A stretch of 64,000 nt of DNA, taken from contig NZ_CP042913.1 in assembly GCF_008065115.1 (NCBI RefSeq), positions 319,211 to 383,210 of the forward strand, written 5' to 3'. Under the pieces are notes generated by a model. That model had not been told where the DNA came from, did no database searches, and saw nothing but the letters and a program-made list of their open reading frames with translations. The translations under genes were made by a program, and so were the position numbers. Below are positions 10,063 to 16,026 of this stretch, piece after piece. Position 1 is the first letter of the stretch. Each line of letters starts with the position of its first letter. The DNA comes from Bythopirellula goksoeyrii. GTDB taxonomy: Bacteria > Planctomycetota > Planctomycetia > Pirellulales > Lacipirellulaceae.

Positions 10063-11535
10063 CTACAGCAATGGCCCCGCAAGACGGGCGAAATTCTCTG
10101 CTATACGCTCTTTGGCAGGACGGCTCTCCCAGGTCGCCAAGTCCATCAGCTCAGACTGGTCTATGTATTGCTGCTGTAATTCCCGAAGCCGAGCTGTAAA
10201 CTCCTGGTTATAAATTGCCAGCGATATCTCAAAATTAATCCGCAAGCTGCGTGGGTCGAGATTCAGCGAGCCAAAGAGGCTAAGTTCGCCGTCGACTGTC
10301 ACGCTCTTTGTATGCAGGAGTCCCCCAGTAAAGTTTGCGATCCGAACTCCGGCATTGAGCAAGTCTCCCTTAAATGCCTGGCTCGCATAACGAACGAGAT
10401 GGGAATCTACTATCTTTGGAACGATGAGTATCACTTTGACGCCCCTCTCGGCTGCCGATACCATTCCCATCAGCATTGATTCGTTCGGAACGAAGTAGGG
10501 GGTTGTAAGTATCAATTCCTTGCGGGCTGCATAGACAGCCGTTACGAGTACCTGTTCGATTGAACCACTAGCATGGCCTGGCCCCGACGGCAGAACTTGA
10601 ACGGCAGCCTCAGCGATTCTTGGCTGAGGCAATGCGTCCCCATTCTTCTGCAAATCTTCAAGTTGTTCCGTGGATTCGACGTACCAATCCCCTAGAAATG
10701 TAATGGCGAGGGGTTCGACAGTTGGACCCTGTAATCGGACCATTGCATCGACCCATTGTCCAACTCCAGAATCCTTCTTGAAATAGCGGGGATCTACCAG
10801 ATTCAAACTTCCCGTATAAGCTGTTCTTCCATCAATAACCACGATCTTGCGATGCAAGCGAATATCCATTCTCACAAAAGCCATCCGCAAGAGGCCCCCA
10901 GAGAGTGCCTCTTGAATTTGTACGCCCGCATCCTTCATTTCAGCGGCAAGAGGACTCCGCAGAAAGGTCCGACTCCCCATGGCATCCAAAAGTACACGGC
11001 AGTCAACCCCACGCTTACTTGCACGAACCAACGCCTCAGCAACTCTATCTGCCTCACCACCCAAATGCCAAATGTAGAATTCCAGATGACAAGTACTTAT
11101 TGCCGCATCAATGTCGGCAATCAAATGCTTGAACACGGCTTGCCAATTGTCAAGGAGTTCAATCTGGTTGCCAGGGAGAGCGGGCATATTGAGTGTCCGC
11201 TTGCCAAGGTGCGCGAGTTGTTCATGCTCTATAGGAAGTCGCAATGGATGATCCTCGAAGCGGTGCTCCAATTCAGCGAGCCAGTTGCGAAACGGTGCCA
11301 AGAGCTTTGTTGATCGCCCTATGCGGTGTTGGCCCAATTTAAGTTCGGCCATCATGATATACAACGCGGGACCTACAACAGGCAGACCAAAGATTATCAG
11401 AACCCACGCCAACGTTTCTCCGACCGGCCTCCTTCGCATGACGACACGCAGAGCCAATATGACCTGGAGTGCTAAGTGGATTAGGAAAAGCGGCAGATAC
11501 ACAGGCCAATGTGATTGTTTGAGGTATTCGAGCAT
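10063..11535 (-). CDS. cls: Cardiolipin synthase (phospholipase D family)
   Basis: The 490-residue protein has two N-terminal membrane helices (residues about 13-30 and 40-62), then two PLD-type catalytic motifs: HRKIVVIDG with H228 and HTKSVTVDG with H408, each followed by G.SLNL. This is the layout of bacterial Cls enzymes, which condense two phosphatidylglycerol molecules, or PG with PE, to cardiolipin at the inner membrane. The gene follows the EEP gene by 59 bp on the same strand; in E. coli clsB also sits beside an EEP-family gene (ybhP), so the pairing is probably meaningful. The stop codon overlaps a 14-bp perfect palindrome (ggacacatgtgtcc, 10050-10063). Confidence 0.92.
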   Translation of the reverse strand: MLEYLKQSHWPVYLPLFLIHLALQVILALRVVMRRRPVGETLAWVLIIFGLPVVGPALYIMMAELKLGQHRIGRSTKLLAPFRNWLAELEHRFEDHPLRLPIEHEQLAHLGKRTLNMPALPGNQIELLDNWQAVFKHLIADIDAAISTCHLEFYIWHLGGEADRVAEALVRASKRGVDCRVLLDAMGSRTFLRSPLAAEMKDAGVQIQEALSGGLLRMAFVRMDIRLHRKIVVIDGRTAYTGSLNLVDPRYFKKDSGVGQWVDAMVRLQGPTVEPLAITFLGDWYVESTEQLEDLQKNGDALPQPRIAEAAVQVLPSGPGHASGSIEQVLVTAVYAARKELILTTPYFVPNESMLMGMVSAAERGVKVILIVPKIVDSHLVRYASQAFKGDLLNAGVRIANFTGGLLHTKSVTVDGELSLFGSLNLDPRSLRINFEISLAIYNQEFTARLRELQQQYIDQSELMDLATWESRPAKERIAENFARLAGPLL

Positions 11536-11594: not shown

Positions 11595-12329
11595 TCATGT
11601 TTTGTCTCCTAGAGTAAATTCCACTACGAGTGGTAGATGATCCGACGCTACGCGGGCTAGTGCCGTGCGACTGGCATACGCATGATGCACATGAAGCGGC
11701 CCGCGGTAGTAAATGCGGTCTAGCGGCCGCATCGGAAAGAGTGCAGGAAAGGTGCGATGCATCCCCCCTGCGTTGCGATAGCCGACCGGTTCCAAGACCT
11801 TTCGCCCCAGCCTTCCCCATACGTCGTTGAAATCACCACCCACGAGAATCGGTGTTTCGCTATGAGCGTTGGCCAGCAAATGGTGTTTGAGAAGCTTTTT
11901 TAGTTGAATCGTTCTTTCAGGTCCGGCCAATCCCAGATGCATATTCGCCAACAGCAGTGAACGTGTATGTTCTCCGATCGAAAGTTTGCAACGAGCCAGA
12001 AGGGCTTGCCTACGTTTCTTCAATGGAACTGATAGGTTACAGTTTTCAACATCTTTCAAGGGAACTCTGCTCAAGATGGCGTTCCCATAACAGCCCTGTT
12101 TTAGATGAACATTGCGCTGATAGGCCACGTGATGCAGGTCGAGCGCCTCAGCCAGCATTTCTGCCTGATGATGGCGGTTGGATCGAGGAACATCTTCATC
12201 GACCTCCTGCAAGAAAACTATCGTAGGCTCTAAGTGGGCCAGGGTCTCGATAATCCGCTCAGGTCGGTACTGGCGATCCCGCCCGCCGATTCCTTTGTGG
12301 ATATTGTAAGTAACTACGCGAAATTGCAT
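11595..12329 (-). CDS. Endonuclease/exonuclease/phosphatase (EEP) family protein
   Basis: The product is 244 residues from the ATG at 12329. The start was chosen because the family's first strand (VVTYNIHKGIG) then begins at once; the frame's first ATG at 12380 would add 17 unrelated residues. Family motifs seen are NIHKG, the metal-binding FLQEVDED near residue 40, GGDFND around residue 165, and the catalytic C-terminal SDHLPLVVEF. All of the metal and catalytic positions seem present. EEP proteins cleave phosphodiester or phosphoester bonds in nucleic acids, lipids or sugars. The cls gene immediately downstream suggests a lipid or membrane link, as for E. coli YbhP, but the substrate is not known. 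Confidence 0.85.
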   Translation of the reverse strand: MQFRVVTYNIHKGIGGRDRQYRPERIIETLAHLEPTIVFLQEVDEDVPRSNRHHQAEMLAEALDLHHVAYQRNVHLKQGCYGNAILSRVPLKDVENCNLSVPLKKRRQALLARCKLSIGEHTRSLLLANMHLGLAGPERTIQLKKLLKHHLLANAHSETPILVGGDFNDVWGRLGRKVLEPVGYRNAGGMHRTFPALFPMRPLDRIYYRGPLHVHHAYASRTALARVASDHLPLVVEFTLGDKT

Positions 12330-12383
12330 GCCGCAATGATAACCAGGAGCAACCCAGGATAACCAGGACGGCAAAGACAAATT

Positions 12384-13273: not shown

Positions 13274-14539
13274 TCACGCCGCCGCGCGATAGCAGTCTTC
13301 TGTCGAATTCTGTTGTAGCCTCGGCGGAACTACGGTCTTGCTAAGTTGAAGACGATCTTCGCCCCTCAAAAGTGCCACCCCCCAGTTGTTCAGAAGGTAT
13401 TTGCCCCCATTGTAGACGGAGCGGTATTTTTCTTTCCCGGTAAGTACCGGAACATTGGTCGGCACAATTCTCAGGTTGAATGCCAGTCGATATCGATCGG
13501 TGATATTAGCCGGCGAACCGTGAATACATCGTTCCGTGAAAATGATAAACTGCCCTGATTTGACGGGCATGGTTACGACTCGCTCGGGATCACGATCGAA
13601 ATCAAGTGAGAAATTGGCGTTATAGAATCCTTCATCTCCTCCGAATTTGATCTTGTGAATCCGGTCATGCGAGCCGCGAATGAATTGCATGCAGCCATTT
13701 TCTGGAACCGCATCATCGACTGCGACCCAAACGGTGAGCTGAAACATTTCATCAGTACGTGGCGGGTAGATTGCCGGGTCGAGATAGTCCTCGACCATAA
13801 AAGTGCTGGCTTGATGGAATTGGATCGCAGGGGCACCGGGGCCTTTATAGAAAAGCTGCGTTCGCCAACAAAGCAAATCTTGCCCAAGCAACTGGGCAGC
13901 GCGTTCCACAATTGCAGGATGATTCATACATTCCCACAGTCGGGCCGATTCCAAATGTCGATCGCGCGGCGTGACAAAACCATAAGTCTGTGATTTTTCT
14001 TTTTCGACAGCAAGCATCTCCTTACGGAGTTGTGCCATCTCTTCTTGACTAAAAGCATCAAAAGGTCCGATGAACCCATCCCGATGAAACTGATCAAACT
14101 CCGCCTCCGTCATGCGGAACTCCGGATTGACCTGTGCCTTGGGTAGATGCTTGCCAGTGATATCGAAGGTGCAGGGCTCATCGATATAGGCCTGCGTGAG
14201 GCCGCTCTTTATGAGGGTCCAAAACATCGAGTAGTGCCAGTTCTTGACGATCGCCTTAAGATCGCGAGGAAGAATTCTGCGAGGCAGGTGAAGTGCCTTG
14301 TAGGCAAACAAGAAAGTCAGTGCAGGAAGGATCAAGGCCCGCTGCCAAAGGGGTCGAAGTTTCGGATGCATGTTCATAGAGATGGCGACCAAATGCACGA
14401 TGGAAAGGAGCTTCCCAGCGTTGGCCTGGTGGCCAAGACTAGGGTCTTTTCCCACGAGTGGTTGAGAAACCTGCGGGATACTACTACAGAACATTCTTCG
14501 GATATTCGTGGTTCTGAGGTGTAGAAAATTCGTTTCCAT
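13274..14539 (-). CDS. SyrB2-like Fe(II)/2-oxoglutarate enzyme, putative chlorinating enzyme (PhyH superfamily)
   Basis: This 421-residue protein has a C-terminal phytanoyl-CoA-dioxygenase-like domain (about residues 140-400). The proximal iron motif is FHQASTF, so the usual HxD/E is HxA (H242, A244); the distal His is H340 (CIHGSPAN) and the 2-oxoglutarate Arg is probably R357 (NLRIVP). HxA is the hallmark of SyrB2-type halogenases, where chloride takes the place of the carboxylate ligand. Further blocks resemble SyrB2 as remembered: GFIGPFDAFSQEEM, LLCWRTQLFYKGPG, LTVWVAVDDAVPENGC and SGQFIIF. The N terminus is about 130 residues longer than SyrB2 and holds a hydrophobic stretch (LILPALTFLFAYKAL), which may bind membranes. 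The ATG at 14539 is chosen because AGGA precedes it; the frame opens at 14587. No carrier-protein or NRPS gene is nearby. Halogenation is inferred; hydroxylation is the alternative. Confidence 0.8.
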   Translation of the reverse strand: METNFLHLRTTNIRRMFCSSIPQVSQPLVGKDPSLGHQANAGKLLSIVHLVAISMNMHPKLRPLWQRALILPALTFLFAYKALHLPRRILPRDLKAIVKNWHYSMFWTLIKSGLTQAYIDEPCTFDITGKHLPKAQVNPEFRMTEAEFDQFHRDGFIGPFDAFSQEEMAQLRKEMLAVEKEKSQTYGFVTPRDRHLESARLWECMNHPAIVERAAQLLGQDLLCWRTQLFYKGPGAPAIQFHQASTFMVEDYLDPAIYPPRTDEMFQLTVWVAVDDAVPENGCMQFIRGSHDRIHKIKFGGDEGFYNANFSLDFDRDPERVVTMPVKSGQFIIFTERCIHGSPANITDRYRLAFNLRIVPTNVPVLTGKEKYRSVYNGGKYLLNNWGVALLRGEDRLQLSKTVVPPRLQQNSTEDCYRAAA

Positions 14540-14706: not shown

Positions 14707-16026
14707 ATGGTTCCGAATTCTGCTCAGAAAGATTCTCATTCTATCCAACGCCGATTACGGCCCCGGGCTGATATTTCTCAATCAGGTCAGGCTGTGTCGG
14801 AAGAAGACTTGGAATCCTTTCGGTTCGATGTGACTGCTGGGAAAAAGCTGCGGATTGACGGTGGCTCATACTCGAAGAATGGCTCACATCCGTGCACGGC
14901 TCAACCTCAGCAAGTGGGACCGCAAGTCTTCTCGAATATTCTCGAAGAACCACAAGCAACGGCCAGCGTTCCTCGAATTCAGATAGCGGCGAAAAGGTCC
15001 TCTCAGCAGGGACGTAAGAAGTTTCCTTCCTGGGCGGCTAGCTTGTTTTTGCACGTCTTATTCATTTTATTTTTGGCCTACTTTACGTTCTCCGCATTCG
15101 ATCCGCAGGTTGACTTTACACTATCCCTGGAATCGGAAGCTTTCGTTGAAGAGGACGTCGAACTTCAGGAGATTGAGTTTGATCCCCTGGAAGAGATCGA
15201 GTCCGATGTGAATCAATTGGCCAGTGAAATACAAGAAGCATCCCAGATATCGGCCAGCGAACTGAGTGCCGAGGTAGCGCTGGCAGATATGTCAAACCTT
15301 TCTGGTTCAGAAAATCTTGGGTTGGGAGAATTGTCTGGATTGTTCGGCGCACGCGGCAACGCGCTCAGCGAAATGCTCCCTGCCAAGGAAAAGCTTACGG
15401 CCACTTTCTTTGAGACGAAAGTCGAGGGGCGGCGAATCGTTTACGTCGTCGACAACTCGGGAGGTATGCGAAGCGGCGAACTGGAAACACTCATAGACGA
15501 ATTGATGAAGAGTGTCGAATCACTCAGCGACAAACAAGAGTTCTATGTAATTTTCTATAGCGACTCGCTATATCCGCTTTTTTATCCCGATCCGGTTCAG
15601 CGATTCGTTCCAGCTAATGATCGGTTTAAGGAACAATTGCGCAGATGGCTCGATACGGTAGAATTCTGTCAGGGAAATGTCGTAGACAATGCGATTGAGG
15701 CGGCCACTCTCATACGTCCCGATGTGGTCTATCTCCTAACGGATGGCGATTTGGATCAAACGCGCGATCAGCGGAGGCTTACTTTTTTGCTCAACCCTCA
15801 AGGACGTCGCTTTCCGATTCACACATTTGGGATGGGTACCGGTGAGAAGGGGAGAGCAGCCGAAAAGCTGCAACAAGTGGCAGAGGCCAATTACGGGAAG
15901 TTTCGTGCGGTGAAAATCTCCGCTGCCGCCAAGAACGCTGCTCTCAGGAAGAAACGTCCCTACCACGATAAGGAACCCGGAGACATCTGGGGCCGCAATG
16001 TAGGGAGCAGTTGGGGAAAACGTTAG
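14707..16026 (+). CDS. Membrane-anchored VWA domain protein
   Basis: This 439-residue protein has a cytoplasmic N-terminal region of about 105 residues of low complexity, one transmembrane helix (about residues 109-131, WAASLFLHVLFILFLAYFTF), an acidic linker rich in Glu, and a VWA domain at about residues 240-400. The metal site reads DNSGGM (D249), so the third MIDAS Ser is Gly; the second loop LLTDGDLD is present. Metal binding may therefore be weaker than in integrin-type domains. The VWA domain probably faces the periplasm and binds a protein partner. The gene diverges from the SyrB2-like gene, with about 170 bp between their starts. The function is unknown. Confidence 0.8.
   Translation: MVPNSAQKDSHSIQRRLRPRADISQSGQAVSEEDLESFRFDVTAGKKLRIDGGSYSKNGSHPCTAQPQQVGPQVFSNILEEPQATASVPRIQIAAKRSSQQGRKKFPSWAASLFLHVLFILFLAYFTFSAFDPQVDFTLSLESEAFVEEDVELQEIEFDPLEEIESDVNQLASEIQEASQISASELSAEVALADMSNLSGSENLGLGELSGLFGARGNALSEMLPAKEKLTATFFETKVEGRRIVYVVDNSGGMRSGELETLIDELMKSVESLSDKQEFYVIFYSDSLYPLFYPDPVQRFVPANDRFKEQLRRWLDTVEFCQGNVVDNAIEAATLIRPDVVYLLTDGDLDQTRDQRRLTFLLNPQGRRFPIHTFGMGTGEKGRAAEKLQQVAEANYGKFRAVKISAAAKNAALRKKRPYHDKEPGDIWGRNVGSSWGKR

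Follow-up and report, generated by a model that had tools for sequence, protein, structure and literature searches.

The 64-kb window of the Bythopirellula goksoeyrii genome (the whole stretch of DNA analysed here, 64,000 nucleotides) encodes HAL, a halogenase-like Fe/2-oxoglutarate protein whose nearest relatives are halogenases by sequence, predicted fold and tree. The new observations are the occurrence of HAL as a single gene in 35 of the 43 Lacipirellulaceae genomes, the family to which the host belongs, an SDR oxidoreductase constantly found downstream, and a link to Alienimonas. We read HAL as an Fe(II)/2-oxoglutarate fatty-acyl chlorinase, with the family SDR acting on the same chain and an acyltransferase in Alienimonas yielding alichondrichlorin, a reading to which we give a probability of roughly 45%. 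The original prediction, a SyrB2-type iron site in a protein closest to the carrier-dependent halogenases, agrees with all three lines of comparison, and its statement that such an enzyme had not been described before is matched by our searches of one open-access library (titles and abstract starts), which returned no description of the HAL family and nothing that joins planctomycetes to SyrB2. Planctomycetes are likewise absent from the main text of a 2026 halogenase-mining preprint (PMC12871659).

Table 1. Features discussed in the text; positions refer to the window unless a locus or genome is named
Feature	Position	Strand	Basis
HAL, halogenase-like Fe/2-oxoglutarate protein, 367 aa	13274..14377	minus	PhyH, PDB and TIGR01762 matches, alignment, model
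His188-Gln189-Ala190, iron motif without carboxylate	13808..13816	minus	aligned with SyrB2 HQA
Distal iron ligand His286	13520..13522	minus	alignment to SyrB2
Arg297, probable 2-oxoglutarate ligand	13487..13489	minus	aligned with SyrB2 R248; role presumed
Arg303 (R357 of the original prediction)	13469..13471	minus	aligned with SyrB2 R254
SDR oxidoreductase (GAASGIG, YTASK), 282 aa	12384..13232	minus	directly downstream of HAL
Endonuclease/exonuclease/phosphatase-type protein	11595..12380	minus	weak NCBIfam match
Cardiolipin synthase	10063..11535	minus	TIGR04265, 413.6 bits (cut-off 290)
WFWYIP flavoprotein, B. goksoeyrii	L171:1333-2589 (G000:C1:2833447-2834508)		motif
Another WFWYIP flavoprotein	L174:442-1785		motif

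Reading frame and N-terminal region

The open reading frame first described for this gene, 13274-14539 on the minus strand, is confirmed by the sequence and the ORF list; within it, ATG 14377 (M55 in the earlier numbering) is most likely the true start, and the 54 codons between 14377 and 14539 are probably untranslated. The internal start is favoured because HAL homologues share MN[LM]xPKxRPxWQR at this ATG, because a stop codon lies at most 12 codons upstream of its equivalent in six distinct loci (L009, L013, L018, L059, L073, L082), and because in B. polymerisocia (L006), the nearest relative with a name, no start codon stands where ATG 14539 would fall. As counter-evidence, an AGGA stands close upstream of ATG 14539.

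The long N-terminal extension with a hydrophobic segment that had been described is present, but it amounts to about 80 residues before the PhyH domain when counted from 14377, and it is moderately hydrophobic. In the AlphaFold2 model it forms helices at residues 10-28, 38-46 and 49-57, with pLDDT above 80 for most of its length, and its mean conservation is 0.73 against 0.78 for the core. The best 19-residue Kyte-Doolittle mean of the first helix is 1.46 in the window protein and ranges from 0.67 to 1.84 across the family, values moderate enough that a membrane span is not clear; the two Alienimonas proteins have no comparable hydrophobic N-terminal stretch (best means 0.32 and 0.43). A membrane anchor, in the form of a helix that is conserved and only moderately hydrophobic, is therefore weakly supported, and so is the suggestion of a membrane-related enzyme.

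Iron site and conservation

The HQA motif (H242 and A244 in the earlier numbering), the distal His (H340) and R357 are all where they had been placed, and the sequence blocks that had been matched to SyrB2 do align with it in the PDB alignments. All 33 aligned HAL homologues keep HQA, the distal His and both Arg unchanged. R357, our Arg303, had been proposed as the 2-oxoglutarate ligand; the residue exists and has its counterpart in SyrB2, but the role, judged by spacing, probably falls to Arg297 (R351), 11 residues past the distal His, which aligns with the residue that we take to be the 2-oxoglutarate ligand of SyrB2 (SyrB2 numbers in Table 1 were counted along its PDB alignment with HAL).

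The 2-His-1-carboxylate triad of PhyH hydroxylases is absent from HAL: the alignment gives Ala190 at the third-ligand position, and Ala in 33 of 33 homologues. By contrast, 28 of 29 other PhyH relatives have Asp there and the remaining one (L026) has Gly, which disfavours a chance HxA in HAL, though a few plasmid-borne relatives vary: five have Ala, three Val (Nostoc, Nonomuraea, Streptomyces), one Glu (Vibrio) and one His (Halorussus). The other PhyH proteins of the B. goksoeyrii genome carry Asp in all five cases; the A. chondri-type genome has four PhyH matches, with the motif unreadable in two (L179, L183).

Two groups of variant proteins deserve mention in their own right. SyrB2-like proteins with HQV lie at L123:7971-8879, L126:4001-4813 and L125:1501-2385, and their genes adjoin NRPS-type genes in Nostoc (L123, from ORF reading) and Streptomyces (L125, annotated). 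In the first tree and the Alienimonas tree described below, a planctomycete PhyH-like protein with His-Gln-Gly (L026:1489-2274, G150:C37) falls, with a long branch, to the halogenase side.

It is important to note that loss of the carboxylate alone is not proof of halogenation, given that the two-His site of AspH hydroxylates without halogenating its substrate (PMC13168262), that the D414A variant of P4H is reported not to have become a halogenase (PMC2767507), and that searches with an HXA/G motif are described as prone to false positives (PMC12871659). HAL might by the same token be a carboxylate-free hydroxylase, with two His holding the iron and water as third ligand, that puts a hydroxyl group on a lipid or acyl chain, the resulting alcohol being oxidised by the SDR. 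A hydroxylase and a short-chain dehydrogenase would make a natural pair, and HQV in three carrier-side relatives indicates that the third-ligand position can drift. We nonetheless consider this reading improbable, since all 33 homologues and both Alienimonas proteins retain Ala. AspH is also like HAL only in having a two-His iron site: it is a hydroxylase, it is not among the HAL relatives listed, and it belongs to another Pfam family, whereas the nearest relatives of HAL are halogenases on each comparison. The chlorinated fatty acid produced by Alienimonas chondri (PMC12078418) argues in the same direction.

Relatives by sequence, fold and tree

Two family models had been named with the original prediction, and HAL passes one and misses the other: it matches PhyH (PF05721) with 109 bits against a Pfam gathering cut-off of 22, and the NCBIfam model TIGR01762 ('chlorinating enzyme') with 158.4 bits, below the cut-off of 226.3. 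The two Alienimonas homologues are also below that cut-off (134.7 and 139.7 bits), and a scan of 294 Planctomycetota genomes found none above it, with matches of 99-154 bits. Two HxD proteins from Planctomycetota themselves reach 99-100 bits, so a sub-threshold TIGR01762 score carries little weight. Because the cut-off is missed, we treat HAL as a new subfamily and not as a member, and the HAL family is a real, well-conserved subfamily that is related to SyrB2 and lies outside TIGR01762.

The best PDB sequence matches of HAL are SyrB2 (E 1.3e-30) and CytC3 (3e-28), followed by the monooxygenase ThoJ (6zyk/6zyl, 7.6e-15); a profile of 33 family sequences keeps this order with stronger values (6.4e-44, 2.2e-38 and 1.2e-20, respectively). 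A structure was predicted for one protein, the window HAL, with a mean pLDDT of 83.4. SyrB2 ranks first with this model both in Foldseek (E 1.4e-24) and in the VIA fold comparison (Z 28.0, 264 residues aligned, 2.4 A), where CytC3 follows at Z 25.5, ThoJ at 23.3 and the remaining entries at 21.8 or less. The likeness to SyrB2 and CytC3 extends beyond fold, HQA, distal His and two Arg to a C-terminal segment after the jelly roll, GGKYxLxxWGVxxLRGED, which the halogenases match with a segment of their own and HxD PhyH rows have in shortened form. Other PhyH proteins (ThoJ 6zyk/6zyl, EctD, PHYHD1) share the fold and the Pfam domain with HAL but have Asp as third ligand.

HAL differs from SyrB2 and CytC3 in its TIGR01762 score, its helical N-terminal extension, the lack of a carrier gene within about 42 kb, and its occurrence in the majority of a family's genomes. 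The second shell differs as well: SyrB2 has WRTE and HQADTFAN, the HAL family WR[ST]Q and HQASTF[ML]V. Among Fe/2-oxoglutarate halogenases, WelO5, AmbO5, BesD and AdeV act on untethered substrates, and BesD is reported to share 7% identity with SyrB2 (PMC8407142). Compared by match lists, none of these four appears among the sequence matches that HAL has in the PDB, and WelO5 and BesD are absent from the fold rows listed by Foldseek and VIA, an absence to which we attach no weight.

In a tree from which long rows were removed, 14 family rows and 8 chlorinating-enzyme rows (5 HQA, 3 HQV) joined against 19 HxD PhyH rows with support 97/94. With Alienimonas added, family and chlorinating enzymes stood against HxD at 99/96, and the Alienimonas proteins joined the family at 99/95. 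The first tree, in which long rows were kept, had the Vibrio row (HQE) joining the HAL family at 85/62. With the rows of the 97/94 tree, the AU test does not reject, at the 0.05 level, a topology that groups the HAL family with the nearest HxD proteins (p-AU 0.056). The first tree and the 97/94 tree used 14 of the 33 family rows, the Alienimonas tree 12. The 97/94 tree left out the Vibrio row and nine others (Halorussus, L036, L047, L026 and five further PhyH rows); the Alienimonas tree kept L026, gained the two Alienimonas proteins and went without 11 rows (two family rows, those five PhyH rows, Vibrio, Halorussus, L036 and L047). No tree included rows L117-L121, most of which are repeats.

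Distribution

Across 296 genomes of the order, searched at E <= 1e-60, each HAL-positive Lacipirellulaceae genome has one match, and the 253 genomes of other families have none. Restricting the family to genomes with completeness of at least 90% and contamination of at most 5% gives 26 of 28. In the family of the Thalassoglobus-type genomes, HAL occurs in 8 of 170 genomes and 2 of 58 genera, and a class-wide sample (25 of 397 genomes) adds no further family. Outside Lacipirellulaceae, the samples searched contain HAL only in this Thalassoglobus-type group, which includes T. neptunius KOR42 (L020) and genomes labelled Planctomicrobium sp. (L016, L018), and, in divergent form, in both Alienimonas genomes.

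Gene neighbourhood

The SDR lies immediately 3' of HAL on the same strand in all 31 Lacipirellulaceae loci compared (the window and L087-L116). It is also directly downstream in L011, L014 and L017; the contig of L015 stops just past HAL. Six Thalassoglobus-type loci (L016, L018, L020, L052-L054, of which L020 and L054 appear to be one genome) have neither an SDR match nor a PapA-like acyltransferase beside HAL. The HAL-linked SDRs of two genomes (G299, G370) match the window SDR at 3.3e-76 and 5.1e-66, against about 4e-30 and 2e-32 for their next-best SDRs. The best SDRs of three Thalassoglobus-type and two Alienimonas genomes reach only 2.9e-30 to 4.6e-26, or weaker, and the SDR partner therefore looks family-specific.

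The best solved relatives of the window SDR in the PDB are ketoacyl reductases, and among the best 60 rows the one that aligns over the longest stretch (residues 6-265) is HSD17B13, a lipid-droplet enzyme. Judged by the general features of halohydrin dehalogenases, the SDR is not favoured as one of them, its NAD(P) and catalytic motifs being intact.

Neighbours of HAL other than the SDR vary between loci. The cardiolipin synthase and the phosphatase-type protein of Table 1 were rejected as pathway members on this ground, being near HAL in some loci only, where the SDR is constant. A PapA-like acyltransferase was rejected as a constant partner too (7 of 20 genomes searched, 3 of 9 in Lacipirellulaceae). 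The divergently oriented neighbour at 14707-16026 of the window has no NCBIfam match at 1e-5, and homologues of it lie upstream of HAL in about 15 of 31 loci.

Carrier domains

The original prediction saw no carrier or NRPS gene in view, and this holds for PP-binding and Condensation domains, neither of which has a match in the window; the genome as a whole, however, has 10 PP-binding domains, the nearest about 42 kb from HAL, so that the term 'freestanding' is no more than plausible. TIGR01762 enzymes usually sit beside an adenylation or carrier gene; by PP-binding and Condensation matches, HAL in its own genome does not, and in other genomes the neighbours were compared through homology to genes of the window. 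An NRPS partner in that genome was set aside: the only Condensation match, at 41.3 bits, falls where a PapA-like acyltransferase sits.

A PapA-like acyltransferase of this genome (C1:2877736-2879094, with one TAG within the match) is related to the Alienimonas HAL neighbour and lies about 10 kb from an open frame of 3,736 aa that has four PP-binding matches (L157-L161, G000:C1:2889274-2892192). Among the plasmid sequences, a 'chlorinating enzyme' annotation occurs on NZ_CP030220.1, recorded as Salmonella enterica.

These data bear on a second alternative, in which HAL is a SyrB2-type halogenase whose substrate, an amino acid or another unit, is attached to a carrier protein with its gene elsewhere in the genome. 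The sister group of HAL fits it, since all five plasmid loci examined that have a gene annotated 'chlorinating enzyme', the HQV locus L125 among them, adjoin adenylation or carrier genes, and besides its PP-binding domains B. goksoeyrii has two NRPS-like clusters and one type I PKS cluster in a published table (PMC13315336). We think it quite unlikely all the same: the window has no PP-binding or Condensation match, the constant neighbour of HAL is an SDR, and presence in 35 of 43 family genomes would be unusual for a peptide-tailoring gene.

Alienimonas and alichondrichlorin

HAL homologues occur in A. californiensis CA12 (G587) and in a genome that we infer to be A. chondri LzC2 (G588), with profile E-values of 1.5e-90 and 3.2e-89 and 35-37% identity. 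Both have HQASTYMF and a matching distal His and Arg. On the same strand, each is directly followed by a gene for a PapA-like acyltransferase, and in A. californiensis 22 bases separate HAL from this next open frame; the two acyltransferases are 65% identical to each other. Their assignment is weak: PapA_C reaches 27.1 bits, just below the Pfam cut-off of 30, the NCBIfam models for PapA5 (36.8 bits, cut-off 396) and wax-ester synthase (31.2) stay far below their cut-offs, and the PDB gives no match at 0.01. PapA5-type enzymes make acyl esters, and on these weak matches the Alienimonas neighbour is probably a PapA5-like, ester-forming acyltransferase.

A. chondri produces alichondrichlorin, an ester between a chlorinated fatty acid and 4-hydroxybenzoate; a review gives its biosynthesis genes as 'currently unknown' and cites a title that calls the compound chlorohydrin-containing (PMC12078418). 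A HAL homologue together with a probable ester-forming acyltransferase would be a good fit to this structure.

The chlorine of planctomycete chlorinated fatty acids may instead come from a flavin-dependent halogenase-like protein, the role of HAL being unrelated. WxWxIP is a flavin-halogenase motif, and flavoproteins with WFWYIP occur in all five planctomycete genomes tested, both Alienimonas included. The B. goksoeyrii copy has PDB matches to a halogenase, PltA and CmlS; its nearest entries, 8zop and 3e1t, each bear the name 'Halogenase'. In NCBIfam, the two copies scanned both match CmlS best. Since HAL and the flavoprotein share the same five genomes, co-occurrence cannot separate them. We still give this source of chlorine little credence: the CmlS scores (186.5 and 184.7 bits) are far from the cut-off of 900, and flavin halogenases are described as acting mostly on aromatic compounds (PMC12871659).

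Proposed mechanism

The constant SDR, the family-wide presence and the Alienimonas link point to a fatty-acyl substrate for the proposed chlorinase. HAL would be a non-haem enzyme acting on a fatty-acyl chain, whether free, CoA-bound or ACP-bound, to place chlorine on one of its unactivated carbons. Fe(II) would be bound by His188 and His286, chloride would occupy the site that Ala190 leaves vacant, and 2-oxoglutarate would be held by the iron and Arg297; reaction with O2 would give a chloro-ferryl species that abstracts hydrogen from the acyl chain, followed by chlorine rebound. In Lacipirellulaceae the SDR would then reduce or oxidise an oxygen function of that chain to yield a chlorohydrin-type product, and in Alienimonas the PapA5-like acyltransferase would transfer the chlorinated acyl group to 4-hydroxybenzoate. 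What the data show are the anatomy of the protein, its predicted fold, its phylogeny and conservation, and the gene order; chlorination, acyl substrate, SDR step and the alichondrichlorin link are all inferred. Several observations speak against a fatty-acyl chlorinase: the second shell differs from that of SyrB2, the gene that accompanies HAL changes from clade to clade, with neither partner beside it in the Thalassoglobus-type loci, and the acyltransferase is weakly assigned.

The closest precedent in substrate and proposed chemistry, compared with HAL by description, is HctB of hectochlorin biosynthesis, given in one account as the only member of the Fe/2-oxoglutarate halogenase family known for fatty acids (PMC12871659); it works on an ACP-tethered acyl group within a natural-product pathway (PMC8407142). 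Cryptic chlorination, with chlorine as a leaving group removed by the SDR or a later enzyme to leave a ring or unsaturation in a chlorine-free lipid, has precedents among Fe/2-oxoglutarate halogenases in CurA, CmaB, JamE and BesD (PMC8407142) and a structural lipid would suit so widely kept a gene, but it seems very unlikely with an SDR of ordinary NAD(P) and catalytic motifs as the sole constant neighbour.

Implications

A wider version of the chlorinase reading, tentative and on balance doubtful, is that Lacipirellulaceae carry a near-core lipid halogenase and SDR, with chlorinated (chlorohydrin) lipids as an ordinary cell component, and that the Alienimonas counterpart makes alichondrichlorin. 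To our knowledge, HAL and its partner would provide the first candidate genes for that compound, and the link to this natural product is directly testable. Chlorination of aliphatic C-H bonds is rare and prized, and HAL with its SDR is a compact two-gene unit in culturable planctomycetes. If the chlorinase reading is true, the family would be a new clade of fatty-acid chlorination catalysts, and the first halogenase clade on the SyrB2 side that acts on fatty acyl chains without a carrier cluster; it would also help to explain the chlorinated fatty acids reported from the phylum. With HAL in most Lacipirellulaceae genomes, one would then have to ask what role chlorinated lipids play in the cell.
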